Origin: a virus
DNA length: 21,476 nucleotides
IMG/VR virus record: IMGVR_UViG_3300047564_006915
Location: 1-21,476 of that record
Strand: one strand, 5' to 3'
Below the pieces are notes generated by a model. It made no database searches. It was given only the letters and a program-made list of their open reading frames with translations, and was not told the origin of the DNA. This document shows, one piece after another, positions 2,059 through 20,703 of this stretch. Position 1 is the stretch's first letter; every line of letters begins with the position of its first letter. The translations under genes and the position numbers were made by a program.

Positions 2059-2491
2059 CTATATCGCAAGTGGTTGGTTTTCTCCAGAGTGGCTCCAGGA
2101 AGTTGAGGACATTAAGGCTGTCCTCGAGGATCTCAAGCTCGATTACTTCTCTCCCAAGGATTATGCGATCGCTGAGGCGACTGCAAGCAACGACACACAG
2201 AAGCAGATCTTTGACGGCAATGTCAAGCACCTTGACATCTGCGACTGGATGATCTGCAACACCCGCAACAAGGACATGGGTTCGATCTGGGAGGCAGGCT
2301 ATTTCTACGCTCGCAACAAGCCCATCGTCTACTTCTGCGCTGGCCTTCCACCTGGTGCCAAGTTCAATCTCATGCTGTCGGCAAGCGGAGTCGCTGTCTG
2401 CACTTCACTCGATGACCTCCGTGAGTACCTGACACACTGCAAGCGTGAAGGTAAGCTGATCACTCGCAACTACAGCGGTTTGATCGAGTAA
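2048..2491 (+). CDS. nucleoside 2-deoxyribosyltransferase-like protein
   Basis: 147 residues when started at ATG 2048, chosen because AGAGG lies at 2036-2040; a start at 2030 would add six residues and has no ribosome-binding site. The order of motifs fits the nucleoside 2-deoxyribosyltransferase family: N-terminal VYIASGW (family: iYLAGP), DWMIC at 66-70, then DMGSIWEAGYFYARNKPIVYF (76-96), where D76 and E82 match the family's D-x-G-t-x-x-E-x-G-x-A signature with Glu as nucleophile. Length matches the usual 140-160 residues. Family members swap bases between deoxynucleosides or hydrolyse the glycosidic bond, so the likely role is deoxynucleotide salvage or removal of a particular base. The gene stands alone between its own promoter and the hairpin at 2501. 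A SLOG- or TIR-like relative with other chemistry is possible. Confidence 0.75.
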   Translation: MNNVYIASGWFSPEWLQEVEDIKAVLEDLKLDYFSPKDYAIAEATASNDTQKQIFDGNVKHLDICDWMICNTRNKDMGSIWEAGYFYARNKPIVYFCAGLPPGAKFNLMLSASGVAVCTSLDDLREYLTHCKREGKLITRNYSGLIE

Positions 2492-2500
2492 TGAGGATAT

Positions 2501-2540
2501 TGTGCGCTCCTGGTGGATAGTTATCTGCTAGGAGCGCACA
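2501..2540 (+). promoter_or_regulatory. perfect 11-bp hairpin that pairs with the ribosome-binding site of the 2540 gene
   Basis: TGTGCGCTCCT (2501-2511) is the exact reverse complement of AGGAGCGCACA (2530-2540), with an 18-base loop. The right arm holds the AGGAG ribosome-binding site and the A of ATG 2540, so full-length RNA would have its start closed. There is no following T-run, which argues against a terminator. A weak -10-like GATAGT (2516-2521) in the loop would start RNA near 2528, after the left arm. Confidence 0.75.
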
Positions 2541-3259
2541 TGCGTATGAATAGATTAGCCCTGCGTAAGATGATCCTCAGAGAGATGCATGATCACATGC
2601 AAGATGAGGATATGCCAGAGATTGAAGCTGAGATCATCGACGATGAGGAAGATGAAGAGCACGAAGACGAAGATGTTCCAGAGGAAGATTACGACACTGA
2701 AGTAGATGAAGAGGGCAACTTCGACTACGAGGATTCGAACGTCTACGAAGAAACTGGGATGATCAAGTCAAACCTCTACATGCTGTCCAAGAAGGCACAT
2801 GAGCTCCATGACGAGATCGGAGATCGTGATGATCTTCCTGAGTGGGTGCAGGAGAAGATTGCAGTCGCTTCCTACATGATGGACACGGTTCACGACTACC
2901 TCATGTACGAGATGGTCAAGGATGACCTCCACGAGAAGAAGGGTGGGCGCACCAAGAGCCGCAAGTACAAGGGCAAGGAGTACCGCGCGACACCCGCGAT
3001 GGTAAGTGCAGTCAAGAAGGGTGCATCCTACAACCAGCTCGCAAAGCTCGCCAAGTGGGCTGATGAACCCGCTGCAGTCGTCCAGGCAGCAAAGATCGTG
3101 GCAAAGGGCAAGCCAATGTCCCGCGACGACGAGGACGACGACCTCGACGAGAACGACAGCTGGGAACCACTGCGCCAGTCAACTGGCATCATGTTCTTCG
3201 AGGACGAAGAGGGCACCGACTACCCAGCGCCCAAAGCGAAGGGTAAGAAGCACGGTTGA
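2540..3259 (+). CDS. very acidic protein with helical core, possible scaffold or head-associated protein
   Basis: 239 residues from ATG 2540, chosen because AGGAG at 2530-2534 is five bases upstream; a GTG at 2513 is also in frame but lacks a site. It begins MRMNRLALRKMILREM, one of the L-R-x-x-I-R terminal helices recurring in this window. Residues about 25-75 are almost continuous Asp and Glu. Next comes a helical module (SNLYMLSKKAHELHDEI, LPEWVQEKIAVASYMM, VHDYLMYEM) of a type I associate with uncharacterised head or scaffold proteins of marine T4-like phages; that recollection is not checked. A Lys/Arg-rich patch near 138-150 (KKGGRTKSRKYKGKEYR), a second helical region, an Asp-rich run near 200-210 and a Lys/Gly tail follow. 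Flanked on both sides by hairpins, so it is independently controlled. Confidence 0.75.
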   Translation: MRMNRLALRKMILREMHDHMQDEDMPEIEAEIIDDEEDEEHEDEDVPEEDYDTEVDEEGNFDYEDSNVYEETGMIKSNLYMLSKKAHELHDEIGDRDDLPEWVQEKIAVASYMMDTVHDYLMYEMVKDDLHEKKGGRTKSRKYKGKEYRATPAMVSAVKKGASYNQLAKLAKWADEPAAVVQAAKIVAKGKPMSRDDEDDDLDENDSWEPLRQSTGIMFFEDEEGTDYPAPKAKGKKHG

Positions 3260-3271
3260 GGTAGTTAGATA

Positions 3272-3287
3272 ACCAGCGGTCGCTGGT
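3272..3287 (+). repeat. short perfect inverted repeat between genes
   Basis: ACCAGCG (3272-3278) and CGCTGGT (3281-3287) are exact complements separated by GT. As RNA this is a 6-bp stem with a four-base loop; as DNA it is a 16-base dyad that could be an operator. It sits 12 bases after the stop of the acidic gene and just before the larger hairpin at 3295. No T-run follows, so it is a poor intrinsic terminator. Confidence 0.5.
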
Positions 3288-3294
3288 GTAAATA

Positions 3295-3353
3295 GAGGCC
3301 TCGGTGATTATAATGAGTTCATGAAGATACTCATTACTGGTCACCGAGGTTTC
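3295..3353 (+). promoter_or_regulatory. long hairpin (about 24 pairs) with the start codon in its loop and TATAAT in its left arm
   Basis: CCTCGGTGA (3299-3307) pairs with TCACCGAGG (3341-3349). Pairing continues inward through two G-T pairs and an A-T pair, one bulged base (C3337), then TAATGAGT (3311-3318) with ACTCATTA (3329-3336). G-T and A-T pairs extend it outward to 3295/3353. The 10-base loop contains ATG 3321. A perfect -10 hexamer, TATAAT at 3309-3314, is in the left arm; its expected start falls on or next to ATG 3321. The -35 region is poor. The right arm is protein-coding, so the left arm mirrors codons 3-11. Confidence 0.85.
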
Positions 3354-4301
3354 ATTGCATCCAACCTTCCACCTGCATTCGCCGATCTCGATCACGAAGT
3401 TGTCGATCCCAGTCAGCTTAGGTTGACACACAAGCTGCCGACAGGTGAGCACTGCGTCTATCGCAACAGTGAGGATGACTGGGCGCGCGAGATCAAGCGG
3501 CTCGGCATTGATGTAGTTGTCCACAATGCAGCAGCAGTGGGCACCGATGTCGTCGCGCTCAACCCTAACGAGGCGACACTGTCCAACGTGACAGGAACCT
3601 ACAACATCTGTCGCGCTGCTGAGAAAGCCCGTGCAGCCGTCCTCTACCTCGGAACGACTGTCATCTATAACACAGATCTGTATCAGGGATCCTGGATCGC
3701 TGAGCGCTCCTCGCACGGCCCACAGACACTCTACGGATCTCTGAAGCTGGCAGGTGAGTACATCGTCCGTGCACACAGCACGAAGTGGTCGATCGTCCGG
3801 CCCCTCTTCTGCTATGGTGGCGTGGGTGACAACAACTCTCTGATTGCGAAGGGGTTCTTCGGCGCTGCACACGGCAAGGAGAAGATCGACATGTTCCTCG
3901 ATCCGAAGAAGATCAAGGATTACATGCGTGTGGAAGATTTCTGCGATGCGGTGGCCACCGTGGTCGATAAGGAGCTGTGGAACGACGATTGGAACGTCGC
4001 TGCGGAGACGCCAGAGAACACAGGCAGGATCGTCGAGATGATGAGCGAGATCTCGTGCAAGGATCTAAAGGGTGTGGTAAAATGGCACCCAGGAACCGAC
4101 TACTTGGGTAACCATCGTTTAAGCTCACAGAAGTTCAGGGATGCTTCTGGTTGGACACCAAAATACGACCTATATAGTGGCTTGGAAAAGTCGTGGAATG
4201 ACATCCAGCGTAATCTGGGTTCCACGGATTATAATCCTCTGCGATATCTGGAAGATGCCAAGAAGCGCGGTGTCGACCTCACACAATTCTTCAACCGGTG
4301 A
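3321..4301 (+). CDS. NAD(P)-dependent sugar epimerase/reductase (extended SDR family)
   Basis: 326 residues, the normal size of the family. The Rossmann nucleotide-binding motif is at the N-terminus (MKILITGHRGFIASNL; G7, G10, A13 in the GxxGxxA form), HNAAAVGTD at 69-76 is the family's NxAA segment, T113 is the probable Ser/Thr of the active site and Y138-x-x-x-K142 the catalytic pair. RPLFCYG near 160-166 matches the R-x-x-N/x-YG region. It should convert an NDP-sugar; the short N-terminal domain and GTTVIY suggest a reductase/epimerase such as GDP-4-keto-6-deoxymannose or dTDP-4-keto-rhamnose reductases, but the substrate cannot be fixed. No Shine-Dalgarno precedes ATG 3321; the TATAAT six bases upstream suggests leaderless RNA. 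A second enzyme of the superfamily lies at 9563. Confidence 0.9.
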   Translation: MKILITGHRGFIASNLPPAFADLDHEVVDPSQLRLTHKLPTGEHCVYRNSEDDWAREIKRLGIDVVVHNAAAVGTDVVALNPNEATLSNVTGTYNICRAAEKARAAVLYLGTTVIYNTDLYQGSWIAERSSHGPQTLYGSLKLAGEYIVRAHSTKWSIVRPLFCYGGVGDNNSLIAKGFFGAAHGKEKIDMFLDPKKIKDYMRVEDFCDAVATVVDKELWNDDWNVAAETPENTGRIVEMMSEISCKDLKGVVKWHPGTDYLGNHRLSSQKFRDASGWTPKYDLYSGLEKSWNDIQRNLGSTDYNPLRYLEDAKKRGVDLTQFFNR

Positions 4302-4310
4302 AATAAAAAT

Positions 4311-4340
4311 TTGTTGTGCCGGATATCCAATGTAGATAAT
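4311..4340 (+). promoter_or_regulatory. possible promoter of the homing endonuclease
   Basis: TTGTTG at 4311-4316 and GATAAT at 4335-4340, 18 bases apart, in an AT-rich gap. The expected start is at about 4347, next to ATG 4348, and no Shine-Dalgarno is visible, so the RNA may be leaderless. GGATATCC at 4321-4328 is an 8-base palindrome between the two boxes. Both hexamers are imperfect and AT-rich sequence gives such matches easily. Confidence 0.3.
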
Positions 4341-4347
4341 TACAGAT

Positions 4348-5049
4348 ATGGAACAAAAATATTACGTGTACAAAATTACCAATTTGATAAATGAAAAAAT
4401 CTACATTGGTATGACAAAAAATATAGAAACAAGATGGACGACGCACAAAGCGCGGTCAAAAACACGTAAAACCTTGCTCTATTGTGCGATGAATCACTAC
4501 GGATTAGAAAATTTTAAAATTGATGTGTTAGAAACGTGCGCAACTGAGCTAGAAGCAAAGAACGCTGAAATTCGTCTAATTGCTAGTTTAGGCGCACAAA
4601 ACGCAAGCACCGGCTACAACATGACAGCTGGGGGTGATGGCGTCTGCAATCCAACAGATGAAATACGGTTAAAAATGTCTATTTCTAGAACTGGCAAAAA
4701 AGCGTCATTAGAAACAAAGCAAAAAATGAGTGATAAGAGAAAGGGACGTATTTTTTCTGATACACATCGAGAGAACCTTTCTAGGGCGGCAAAATTAAGA
4801 GCTGAATCTGGCCATAAAGTAGAAGTTAAAGAATCAACACGACAAAAACTATCTGATAAATCAAAAGGTAGTAGCAATCCATCTGCAAAGTTGACAGAAA
4901 AAGAAGTTTTAGAAATAAAACGCCTTTTGCGAAGCAAATTGTATACACACTACCAGATTGCAGACATGTTTAAAATTAGTCGACCAACTGTTGGTTTTAT
5001 AAAAAACGAACGGTTGTGGGCTCATGTAAAATTAGAAGATGAAGATTAA
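4348..5049 (+). CDS. GIY-YIG homing endonuclease, free-standing (SegA-like)
   Basis: 233 residues. The GIY-YIG nuclease domain spans about 4-95: YVYKITNLINEKIYIGMT (6-23) gives the two signature tripeptides as VYK and YIG, R29 is the probable catalytic arginine and E74 (NAEIRLI) the metal-binding glutamate. Residues about 103-175 carry two or three NUMOD3-like repeats (EIRLKMSISRTGKKAS, ETKQKMSDKRKGR, STRQKLSDKSKG) and the C-terminus ends in a helix-turn-helix (ITKEEVLEIKRLL-like, then HYQIADMFKISRPTVGFIKN). These bind DNA in phage Seg and intron endonucleases. Base composition is markedly richer in A+T than both neighbours, a sign of recent arrival. No intron or intein is evident; it sits between complete genes and probably cuts the same junction in related phages that lack it. 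Confidence 0.95.
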   Translation: MEQKYYVYKITNLINEKIYIGMTKNIETRWTTHKARSKTRKTLLYCAMNHYGLENFKIDVLETCATELEAKNAEIRLIASLGAQNASTGYNMTAGGDGVCNPTDEIRLKMSISRTGKKASLETKQKMSDKRKGRIFSDTHRENLSRAAKLRAESGHKVEVKESTRQKLSDKSKGSSNPSAKLTEKEVLEIKRLLRSKLYTHYQIADMFKISRPTVGFIKNERLWAHVKLEDED

Positions 5050-9562: not shown

Positions 9563-10555
9563 ATGAAGAGAGCATTAGTAACGGGCGGCGCCGGCTTCAT
9601 TGGGTCAAATCTGACGCACGCGCTCGTCGATGATGGCTGGACAGTTGACGTAGTAGACGACATGTCGAACGGTCATCTCAACCTTCTTGATGGTTTGAAC
9701 TATCGAGTTTTTCTGCCGGGCATGGCAGAAATCTATGAGGCACAGAAGCAGAGAACTTCGAAAGAAGTTTACGTGCATGAGTGCGACTTTGCACATCCAG
9801 TCATTCTAGACAGAATTGCTCGGAAGCAATACGACATCGTCTTCCACCAGGCAGCTGTTCCGCAAGTTTCCTACTCTGTCGAGCAGCCTACGAAGACGAC
9901 AGACGTCAATCTTCTGAGAAGCATTGAGCTTCTCCATTCTTGCGTCGGCAACGTCGACAAGGTGGTTGTTGCATCATCATCAGCTGTCTATGGTAACACG
10001 GAGACACTGCCGACAACTGAAGAGACGCCACGTAACCCAAGATCTCCATACGGCCTCCAGAAGAGTGCTCTTGAGGATTTCTGTCGACTATTTGGTGAGC
10101 TCTACGATCTAGACACCGTCTGTCTGCGTTATTTCAACGTTTTCGGCGCAGGCCAGTATGGCGACTCACCTTATTCCACAGCGGTGTCTGCTTGGTGTGA
10201 TGCAATCAAGAGCGGGCGCTCTCTTAGATCCGATGGTGATGGATCTCAATCCCGTGACATGTGTCATGTTGACAACGTCGTAAGTGCCAATATTCTTGCT
10301 GCCAAGACGCCGAACCGCCTCATGGGCAAAGGGTACAACATCTGCTGCGGTGAGAGGACGACAAACCTTGAGATCCTCCAACACCTTACAGGAGCATTTC
10401 CAACAGTTGAAGTTCGTCACGCTCCCTGGCGTCCAGGAGATGTCAAGCACACACTGGGTGACTGGACATCAGCAAATCGTGACTTCGGATACCAACCACT
10501 AGTTAAGTTCTGGGATGGGCTTGAGAAGACGCTCGCCTGGTGGGAGCTCAAGTAA
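9563..10555 (+). CDS. UDP-sugar 4-epimerase-like protein (extended SDR family)
   Basis: 330 residues. GGAGFIG (8-14) is the NAD-binding GxxGxxG motif and D31-D33 the adenine-ribose site. VASSSAVYG (137-144) and Y163-x-x-x-K167 give the Ser-Tyr-Lys active site. RYFNVFGAGQ (189-198), SPYS and the later DGDGSQSRDMCHVDNVV region follow the layout of UDP-glucose and UDP-N-acetylglucosamine 4-epimerases (GalE/WbpP type: RYFNVFGPRQ, DGEQTRDFxYVDD). The product would be a C4-inverted UDP-sugar for a glycosyltransferase, which is not in the window. AGAGG lies at 9553-9557, six bases before ATG 9563. The gene ends in TAATG shared with the thymidine kinase start, so the two are co-translated. Substrate beyond UDP-hexose or HexNAc is uncertain. 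Confidence 0.92.
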   Translation: MKRALVTGGAGFIGSNLTHALVDDGWTVDVVDDMSNGHLNLLDGLNYRVFLPGMAEIYEAQKQRTSKEVYVHECDFAHPVILDRIARKQYDIVFHQAAVPQVSYSVEQPTKTTDVNLLRSIELLHSCVGNVDKVVVASSSAVYGNTETLPTTEETPRNPRSPYGLQKSALEDFCRLFGELYDLDTVCLRYFNVFGAGQYGDSPYSTAVSAWCDAIKSGRSLRSDGDGSQSRDMCHVDNVVSANILAAKTPNRLMGKGYNICCGERTTNLEILQHLTGAFPTVEVRHAPWRPGDVKHTLGDWTSANRDFGYQPLVKFWDGLEKTLAWWELK

Positions 10556-11109
10556 TGCGCATCCCACCAACATTCACTGTCTTCTGTGGGCCTATGATGT
10601 CGTCCAAGACGACACGTCTGATCGGTGCGGTCGACCGCTTTCGATATCAGAACCAGCGTGTCCTTGCGTTTAAACCAAAGATGGATAGAAGGTATGCAAA
10701 AGAAGAGATCACTACACACAACGGTGGAAAACTTGAAGCTCTCATTGTTAGCACTGGTGATGAGATACTACGCCACGTTGACGTATATGAACCAGACGTT
10801 GTAGCAGTTGACGAAGCTTTCATGATTGACGGCTCTGCAGACGCACTCATTCAGATCTACCGTAGAGGCGTGTCTGTCGTCGTGTCGTCGATCGAGATGT
10901 CTGCCAGCTGCAACTCTTTCCCAGAGATTGAGAAGATCCTTCCCTGGGCGACAAAGGTTGAGAAGTGCACTGCCGTCTGTGTTGTATGCGGCGAGGATGC
11001 ACCGTACACACAGAAGAAGATCAATGACATCGCAGAGATCACTGTTGGGGGTTCTGAGCTCTATGAGCCTCGATGCTGGTCACATCATGCGACCGCGCGC
11101 GAAGCGTGA
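10555..11109 (+). CDS. tdk: thymidine kinase, type II
   Basis: 184 residues from ATG 10555, which overlaps the epimerase stop (TAATG); an in-frame TTG at 10540 lies inside the epimerase gene and is less likely. The P-loop is GPMMSSKT (12-19), in place of the usual GPMFSGKS/T. VVAVDEAFMID (82-92) carries the Mg-binding Asp (D86) and the catalytic Glu (E87). The lasso and zinc region is recognisable: C142-x-x-C145-G, QKK, GGSELYEPRC (C174) and a His (H177 or H178) in place of the fourth Cys. The enzyme phosphorylates thymidine to dTMP and is common in large phages. The GLD motif after the DE box is replaced by SIE, an unusual divergence. It sits among dNTP-supply genes. Confidence 0.93.
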   Translation: MRIPPTFTVFCGPMMSSKTTRLIGAVDRFRYQNQRVLAFKPKMDRRYAKEEITTHNGGKLEALIVSTGDEILRHVDVYEPDVVAVDEAFMIDGSADALIQIYRRGVSVVVSSIEMSASCNSFPEIEKILPWATKVEKCTAVCVVCGEDAPYTQKKINDIAEITVGGSELYEPRCWSHHATAREA

Positions 11110-20353: not shown

Positions 20354-20382
20354 TTGAACAAACTTGACCGACTTCGTATTAT
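20354..20382 (+). promoter_or_regulatory. sigma70-like promoter, TTGAAC-17-TATTAT
   Basis: TTGAAC (20354-20359) and TATTAT (20377-20382, 5 of 6 against TATAAT) are separated by exactly 17 bases. The predicted start, seven bases after the -10, falls on the A of ATG 20389, and no Shine-Dalgarno is present upstream, so the RNA should be leaderless. The -35 is identical to that at 2002. The -10 overlaps the left arm of the hairpin at 20364. Confidence 0.6.
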
Positions 20383-20412
20383 GCGTTTATGCAGAACTAC
20401 GAAGTCGGTCAA
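20364..20412 (+). promoter_or_regulatory. perfect 15-bp hairpin with the start codon in its loop
   Basis: TTGACCGACTTCGTA (20364-20378) is the exact reverse complement of TACGAAGTCGGTCAA (20398-20412). The 19-base loop (20379-20397) contains ATG 20389. The right arm is codons 4-8 (Tyr-Glu-Val-Gly-Gln), so the left arm is a non-coding copy kept complementary to the gene. RNA started at 20389 cannot form it; RNA reading through from upstream would. As DNA it could also be an operator that covers the -10. Confidence 0.9.
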
Positions 20413-20703
20413 ATTGTCTATCTACTCGTCAAGGGCGAGATGAAGGTCATTCCCACTCGGGTGGTCGAGGCGATCACCCGCAAGACGCTTGAGGGTGTGG
20501 CAACCACCTACATGGTCCAGCTGCCGGACAAGGACAGGTCAGTCATGGATCTGACAGAGCTCGAAGCTGAGCCCTACAACGACCTGAACAGGGTGCGTGA
20601 GGTGATGCTCGAGCGTGTCACTGCGTCCATCGAGGGTACAATCAAGCGCTCAGAAGCCCTGGCTCGAGCACTGATGGGTGGGGCGCAGAGCGACGCCGCC
20701 TGA
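20389..20703 (+). CDS. hypothetical protein, 104 aa
   Basis: ATG 20389 is the only plausible start: it has no Shine-Dalgarno but lies at the predicted first base of the RNA from the promoter at 20354. An earlier ATG at 20381 is out of frame. The N-terminal 60 residues form a small beta-barrel-like domain (NYEVGQIVYLLVKGEMKVIPTRVVEAITRKT, VATTYMVQLPDKDRSVMDL), reminiscent of SH3-like or KOW-type barrels by spacing only. The C-terminal 40 residues are a helix (NRVREVMLERVTASIEGTIKRSEALARAL). No enzyme motif or cysteine is present. I do not recognise the family. Its control by a hairpin and promoter of its own suggests that its dose or timing matters. Confidence 0.8.
   Translation: MQNYEVGQIVYLLVKGEMKVIPTRVVEAITRKTLEGVATTYMVQLPDKDRSVMDLTELEAEPYNDLNRVREVMLERVTASIEGTIKRSEALARALMGGAQSDAA

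Follow-up and report, generated by a model that had tools for sequence, protein, structure and literature searches.

A conserved hairpin with a candidate promoter in its 5′ arm encloses the start codon of a phage epimerase gene

The window analysed here, a stretch of 21,476 nucleotides of viral DNA (IMG/VR record IMGVR_UViG_3300047564_006915), carries on its plus strand a gene for an NAD-dependent nucleotide-sugar epimerase, followed directly on the 3′ side by a gene for a free-standing GIY-YIG homing endonuclease (4348–5049). Judging from the terminase, whose listed matches include phages of the T4 kind such as Synechococcus phage S-WAM1 (33%), the phage group is called T4-like here. Seven IMG/VR contigs encode the epimerase protein at 87–98% identity, and one further contig, L047, encodes it at 69% protein identity (alignment query); a pattern scan returned the same seven close contigs and no new one. 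The contigs L040–L046, L048–L054 and L081–L085 are repeats of contigs already counted. Among known phages, DNA comparison found three records, whose matches are limited to a stretch within the upstream gene, and protein comparison found 116 records, those listed being 24–25% identical; bacterial genomes yielded 26 remote protein relatives at 20–36% identity. The start of the epimerase gene lies among the following features.

3321–4301, plus strand: gene of the NAD-dependent nucleotide-sugar epimerase/dehydratase family, 326 residues (PF01370, 1.1e-26; phrog_540, 6.1e-38)
3295–3320, plus strand: left (5′) arm of the hairpin in the MFE fold, non-coding, with the −10 element inside
3321–3325, plus strand: apical loop AUGAA of the MFE fold, with the start codon within
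3326–3353, plus strand: right (3′) arm in the MFE fold, covering the remainder of codon 2 and codons 3–11 of the epimerase
3309–3314, plus strand: TATAAT, candidate −10 element, separated from the ATG by 6 nt, with the same spacing in 8/8 sequences (TATGAT in L007)
3286–3291, plus strand: GTGTAA, −35-like element separated from TATAAT by a 17-nt spacer, invariant in 8/8 sequences
3272–3287, plus strand: small inverted repeat ACCAGC-GGTC-GCTGGT, overlapping the −35-like element by two bases

The plus-strand RNA of positions 3295–3353 folds as a single long stem. An initial annotation had placed a hairpin around ATG 3321 at precisely these positions, and the fold recovers it there; its estimate of some 24 pairs (20 core pairs and four more) with one bulge falls slightly short of the 26 pairs predicted by MFE, which leaves two bulges in the right arm, U3328 and C3337. 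The free energy of 3285–3363 is −41.0 kcal/mol (z −7.4), a stability reached by none of 200 dinucleotide shuffles (mean −16.47, sd 3.31), and in a scan of 80-base windows with a step of 5 the hairpin is the strongest on the plus strand and the second strongest over both strands. The right arm spells KILITGHRGF (codons 2–11), the N-terminal beginning of the Epimerase-family protein, and the same start methionine is used by epimerase homologs outside the clade that has the hairpin. No terminator-like site, defined as a GC-rich stem followed by a T run, occurs within 2400–4400; none of 4227 Rfam families reaches its gathering score in the window, and a tRNA scan of the window gave no match. A mini-ORF in the left arm (ATG AGT TCA TGA) was considered and dropped, since the L007 sequence there is ATG TGA.

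The hairpin is conserved and under selection. It is kept in the window and in all seven close relatives (protein identity at least 87%), with plus-strand z values of −5.6 to −9.8 in 8/8 sequences, so that conservation of the pairing among related phages, which the initial annotation had set as a test, is borne out. In the same eight sequences the plus-strand fold beats the minus-strand fold, because many positions that are unpaired in the DNA are G-U pairs in the plus-strand RNA, a bias that an element acting in plus-strand RNA would be expected to show. Two-sided pair changes occur at six positions of the right arm (7, 9, 21, 27, 30 and 33), of which position 7 is a first codon position and the other five are third codon positions; at position 27 the pair is U-A, C-G or A-U. 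These changes were taken from each sequence’s own fold, since in alignment A1 a portion of the left arm is displaced by a column. L007 carries most of them, L005 and L006 carry one each, and individual pairs are broken in L003 to L007.

Arm swaps give a second view of the same pairing. The window, L001 and L002 share one hairpin sequence, so six distinct sequences entered the permutation, and the native assignment of left to right arms has the lowest total energy of the 720 possible, with five ties that arise since three of the right arms do not differ within the stem. The arms of L007 reach −41.8 kcal/mol together and −12.9 to −26.5 with the arms of other sequences. Taken singly, only two right arms, those of L006 (by a margin of 0.2 kcal/mol) and L007, pair best with their native left arm, and the right arm of L005 would pair better with the left arm of the window or of L003 than with its own. 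The two-sided changes and the best-of-720 native assignment together support the earlier proposal that the left arm has been selected to match the right. As far as seen, the hairpin appears confined to this clade of the epimerase: L047 has no special start structure (z 0.10 and 0.38 in two computations), and the folds of L086–L089 (50–56% identical to L047; L086 and L087 have identical start regions) contain no comparable start-site hairpin, which makes five more distant contigs, with four distinct start regions, that lack it.

The left arm also holds the TATAAT that had been read there from the sequence; it lies at 3309–3314, six bases ahead of the A of ATG 3321. By eye, no Shine-Dalgarno (SD) sequence is visible upstream of this ATG. 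A generic sigma-70 scan finds no site within 2400–4400, which implies that the −35 element is not the usual one. The motif GTG[TC]A stands at the same distance before TATAAT seven times in G002, G004 and G006 together, and at most twice at each of 49 other positions; judged by eye, the genes behind several of these sites have ordinary SD-like leaders. L047, which is hairpin-free, instead has TTGACA-17-TACAAT and a purine-rich SD, AAGAGGAG, before its ATG (by eye). The small inverted repeat at 3272–3287 is altered on both sides of its stem in L007, with the loop GGTC retained; the sequence pieces compared contain 13 six-pair repeats with a GGTC loop, and the five that stand before TGTAAA are all at the epimerase. 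The initial annotation had RNA starting at the ATG, and the spacing agrees with this, in the 6-nt gap and the 17-nt spacer of all eight sequences and in a 6-nt peak across five contigs; the start itself we infer.

That peak emerges from 530 TATAAT/TATGAT sites in the five contigs G002–G006, with ORFs of at least 60 codons. One of the two hexamers lies 6 nt before an ATG in 18 cases, as against an average of 2.7 over the 40 remaining distances. Four control hexamer pairs give 0 or 1 each at 6 nt; TACAAT/TATTAT gives 12, four of which are one site inside the polymerase gene. The epimerase accounts for five of the 18 starts. Ten of the 18 are enclosed by a hairpin (a raw count; the region folds at −20 kcal/mol or lower, with 20 or more pairs about the ATG), namely the five epimerase copies, G002 119620 and G003 13378 (cytidylyltransferase-like genes, PF01467, checked for G002), G006 120049 (Clp protease family), G006 161121, and G003 28755, the ortholog of the window gene starting at 20389. 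Other leaderless-looking starts have no such hairpin, as at a Clp-type gene in G004 and a gene at G002 131927, so the promoter does not require the hairpin. Leaderless-looking starts are, as far as their sequences tell, a feature of this phage group.

Hairpins also cover the starts of other genes in the window:

2501–2540, plus strand: adjacent hairpin in front of the upstream gene, which starts at ATG 2540, with AGGAG at 2530–2534 in its 3′ arm
20358–20417, plus strand: second start-in-hairpin gene, with TTGAAC (20354–20359), 17 nt, TATTAT (20377–20382), 6 nt and ATG 20389

The SD-masking hairpin of the 2540 gene is present in all seven rows compared (window, L001, G002, G003, L003, G004 and G005, three of them identical); an ortholog of this gene was not found in G006. 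At ATG 20389 the 3′ arm is coding, as at the epimerase, and the start-in-hairpin layout recurs in the window, G001, G002, G003 and G005; in the G006 relative (40% identical) the hairpin is a different one, whose loop holds most of TATGAT and whose stem is followed by a T run. A deoxyribosyltransferase gene (PF05014) adjoins the 2540 gene. Its hairpins in L003, G005 and G004 have unlike stems and a common layout in which the loop contains TATAAT and the 3′ arm contains a GAGG-type SD; at this place there is no more than a small hairpin in the window, L001, G002 and G003, and none in G006.

Counts over whole contigs place these cases in context. In G002, G004 and G006, TATAAT (with its complement) ranks top of the 64 A/T-only hexamers for lying inside strong hairpins, with 14 of 171 sites against 1.57% for the others (binomial p 6.7e-7), a descriptive statistic and no test, as the idea was drawn from the same contigs; the 14 sites fall in about 12 hairpins, and three of them are in epimerase hairpins. 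When every hexamer with 60 or more sites is ranked, TATAAT comes 17th, after G/C-rich ones. Upstream of ORF starts, −10-like hexamers lie in hairpins of −16 kcal/mol or better at 10 of 55 sites for TATAAT, 8 of 88 for TATGAT and 0 to 3 each for ten others, in a count that misses known cases (e.g. G006 120049 and 161121) and whose TATGAT list looks largely like chance, so that the A/T-only ranking and the 6-nt peak are given more weight. Strong hairpins overlap a called start in 4 of 85 cases in G002, 9 of 103 in G006 and 8 of 66 in G004, where rough arithmetic on crude ORF calls gives expectations of about 4, 4 and 2. As a class, strong hairpins are thus only weakly enriched at gene starts, and in G002 they show no general enrichment.

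Several further structures were seen along the way. Hairpins with TATAAT in the loop occur at G002 125808–125839, near G003 7199, at G004 84281–84326 and at G006 149380–149413; in G002, G003 and G004 a T run stands behind the stem, like a terminator enclosing a promoter. An epimerase-family gene precedes the thymidine kinase gene, and its end forms a stem in which the thymidine kinase start lies (window ~10530–10565); G002 and G005 have a similar stem, G003 has a weaker one, and in G006 none was seen.

The best explanation of the epimerase hairpin, and in our judgement a probable one, is a start site for transcription placed within the hairpin, with translation gated as in the T4 genes e, soc and I-TevI. 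A polymerase arriving from the upstream gene would transcribe both arms, and its read-through RNA would fold into the long stem with the AUG in a 5-nt loop and no SD. With its AUG placed in this way, ribosomes should hardly be able to start on the read-through RNA. A polymerase firing at the promoter in the left arm (GTGTAA, 17 nt, TATAAT) would instead begin at or next to the A of the AUG; the resulting RNA lacks the left arm, and hence has neither hairpin nor leader. This mRNA would be read as a leaderless message, and the enzyme would then be produced only when its own promoter fires.

Computed accessibilities are in line with these steps. Over the six distinct sequences, freeing positions +1 to +16 costs 9.5–14.0 kcal/mol in read-through RNA as opposed to 0.9–2.9 kcal/mol in RNA beginning at the AUG, so the read-through message should be poorly translated and the internal-promoter message open. 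Freeing −15 to +15 in read-through RNA costs 20.0 kcal/mol in the window, 15.5 in L006 and 14.3 in L005, as against 13.5 in the hairpin-free L047. At 23 other hand-picked starts the median is 11.5 (range 5.4–28.3); the only two above 20.0 belong to the hairpin genes 2540 and 20389, and several other starts in the window lie at 14–19.

T4 late promoters have the sequence TATAAATA. For the T4 genes e, soc, 49 and I-TevI, passages in two articles (PMC3014915, PMC2988022) describe a helix in read-through RNA that masks the translation start, and a promoter in the DNA of the 5′ strand that yields a short, open RNA lacking that strand; synthesis from the long RNA of gene e is reportedly lowered about 100-fold. 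As in e, soc and I-TevI, a helix is predicted over the AUG in read-through RNA, and a candidate −10 element lies within the left (5′) arm, in 8/8 sequences. In T4 genes of that type the read-through RNA made early stays silent, and the short RNA made later is translated. The T4 late promoter, as outlined in part of a review (PMC2988020), has an 8-bp −10 element and no −35 element, whereas the candidate promoter here is of the −35/−10 type, TATAAT with GTGTAA 17 nt upstream. The short RNAs of the T4 genes keep an SD; here none is visible and the predicted start is at the AUG, which stands in the apical loop, and the 3′ arm is N-terminal coding sequence. The predicted leaderless output, the apical AUG, the coding 3′ arm, the −35/−10 promoter and the recurrence at several genes appear to set this hairpin apart from the T4 device.

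Leaderless mRNAs are a known class in bacteria. The predicted epimerase message would resemble them in its AUG at the 5′ end and its lack of an SD, and would differ in that the leaderless start is joined with a hairpin expected to disable the leadered version. A second likeness is to mobE and segB of T4-related phages, where, according to part of an article (PMC2988022), a hairpin lies over the ribosome-binding site of a gene within a longer transcript. The epimerase hairpin likewise lies at the translation start of a gene in what is probably a longer transcript; mobE and segB encode homing endonucleases and have an SD within the hairpin, and here the gene encodes a metabolic enzyme and has no SD. 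The word “leaderless” is absent from two T4 reviews (PMC2988020, PMC3014915), and in the open-access literature, among the matches listed, no title or start of an abstract describes a hairpin-gated leaderless phage gene.

The paired arms could alternatively act in DNA, as an operator or an extruded cruciform that controls the polymerase and not the ribosome. The repeat spans the −10 element and the presumed start, another inverted repeat stands immediately before the −35-like element, and two-sided changes would preserve a DNA palindrome as well as an RNA stem. However, the greater stability of the plus-strand fold in 8/8 sequences stems from plus-strand G-U pairs, the hairpin-free leaderless-looking starts at G004 104218 and G002 131927 indicate a promoter type independent of the hairpin, and the hairpins of neighbouring genes pair their SD, all of which makes control at the DNA level unlikely. 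We regard as rather improbable a switch in which a ligand, temperature or an RNA-binding phage protein opens the stem so that the read-through RNA is translated: the start is masked in the computed read-through RNA and the main hairpin is preceded by a further small one whose GGTC loop is fixed, but the internal promoter alone would already yield open RNA, the main hairpin has no unpaired conserved core, and the window holds no Rfam family at gathering score.

Stems of more than 20 pairs are possible RNase III substrates, and the hairpin might serve RNA processing or stability, either as an RNase III site or as a 3′ protector of the upstream mRNA, with the masking of the AUG as a by-product. 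Such a stem need not use the codons of the gene or enclose its AUG, though, the hairpins of other genes likewise cover a start or an SD, and the stretch 2400–4400 is free of terminator-like sites; this reading is very unlikely. Finally, a template switch can yield near-perfect inverted copies, and the restriction of the hairpin to one clade would suit a local inverted duplication, which may indeed be its origin. That the hairpin is only a neutral remnant of such an event is nevertheless highly improbable, given its retention with paired changes in 8/8 sequences.

The phage group also encodes sigma-70-like factors, at L014 9452–10186 (G002 ~108452–109186), G003 ~23.7–24.4 kb and G006 ~147.4–148.1 kb. 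In the three copies read, the factor has regions 1.2, 2 and 3, and its frame stops just before the usual region 4.2 helix. The ORF that follows in G002 (91 residues) has no Pfam match and contains a stretch that resembles a helix-turn-helix by eye; the factor and this next ORF may possibly form a split sigma, an arrangement that part of a review discusses for T4 gp55/gp33 (PMC2988020). Region 4 of sigma-70 also occurs alone, above the family cut-off, at G006:C1:17374–17478 and G004:C1:5495–5587, both on the minus strand, in frames of 74 and 83 residues.

The gated, leaderless start that we favour for the epimerase may have counterparts at other genes. We tentatively raise the possibility, which we hold to be somewhat doubtful, of a set of hairpin-insulated promoters, with the −10 element in the loop or the 5′ arm and with a 3′ arm that provides an SD, a leaderless AUG or a terminator. 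Each gene would then be expressed only from its own promoter despite dense packing on one strand, and the promoters would perhaps be read by the phage sigma that ends before the usual −35-binding part. Under the same tentative proposal, the epimerase hairpin would be the leaderless version, with the N-terminal codons forming half of the lock.

If the reading of the epimerase start is true, the logic known from T4, in which a start hidden in read-through RNA is freed by initiation inside the hairpin, would operate without a ribosome-binding leader. The start of the coding sequence would itself be half of the lock, and promoter, RNA fold and codon choice would be tied together within about 60 bases. 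The locus thereby offers a direct test of whether an upstream complementary arm can gate leaderless translation, and it hints that an uncultured phage group may use such a device repeatedly.
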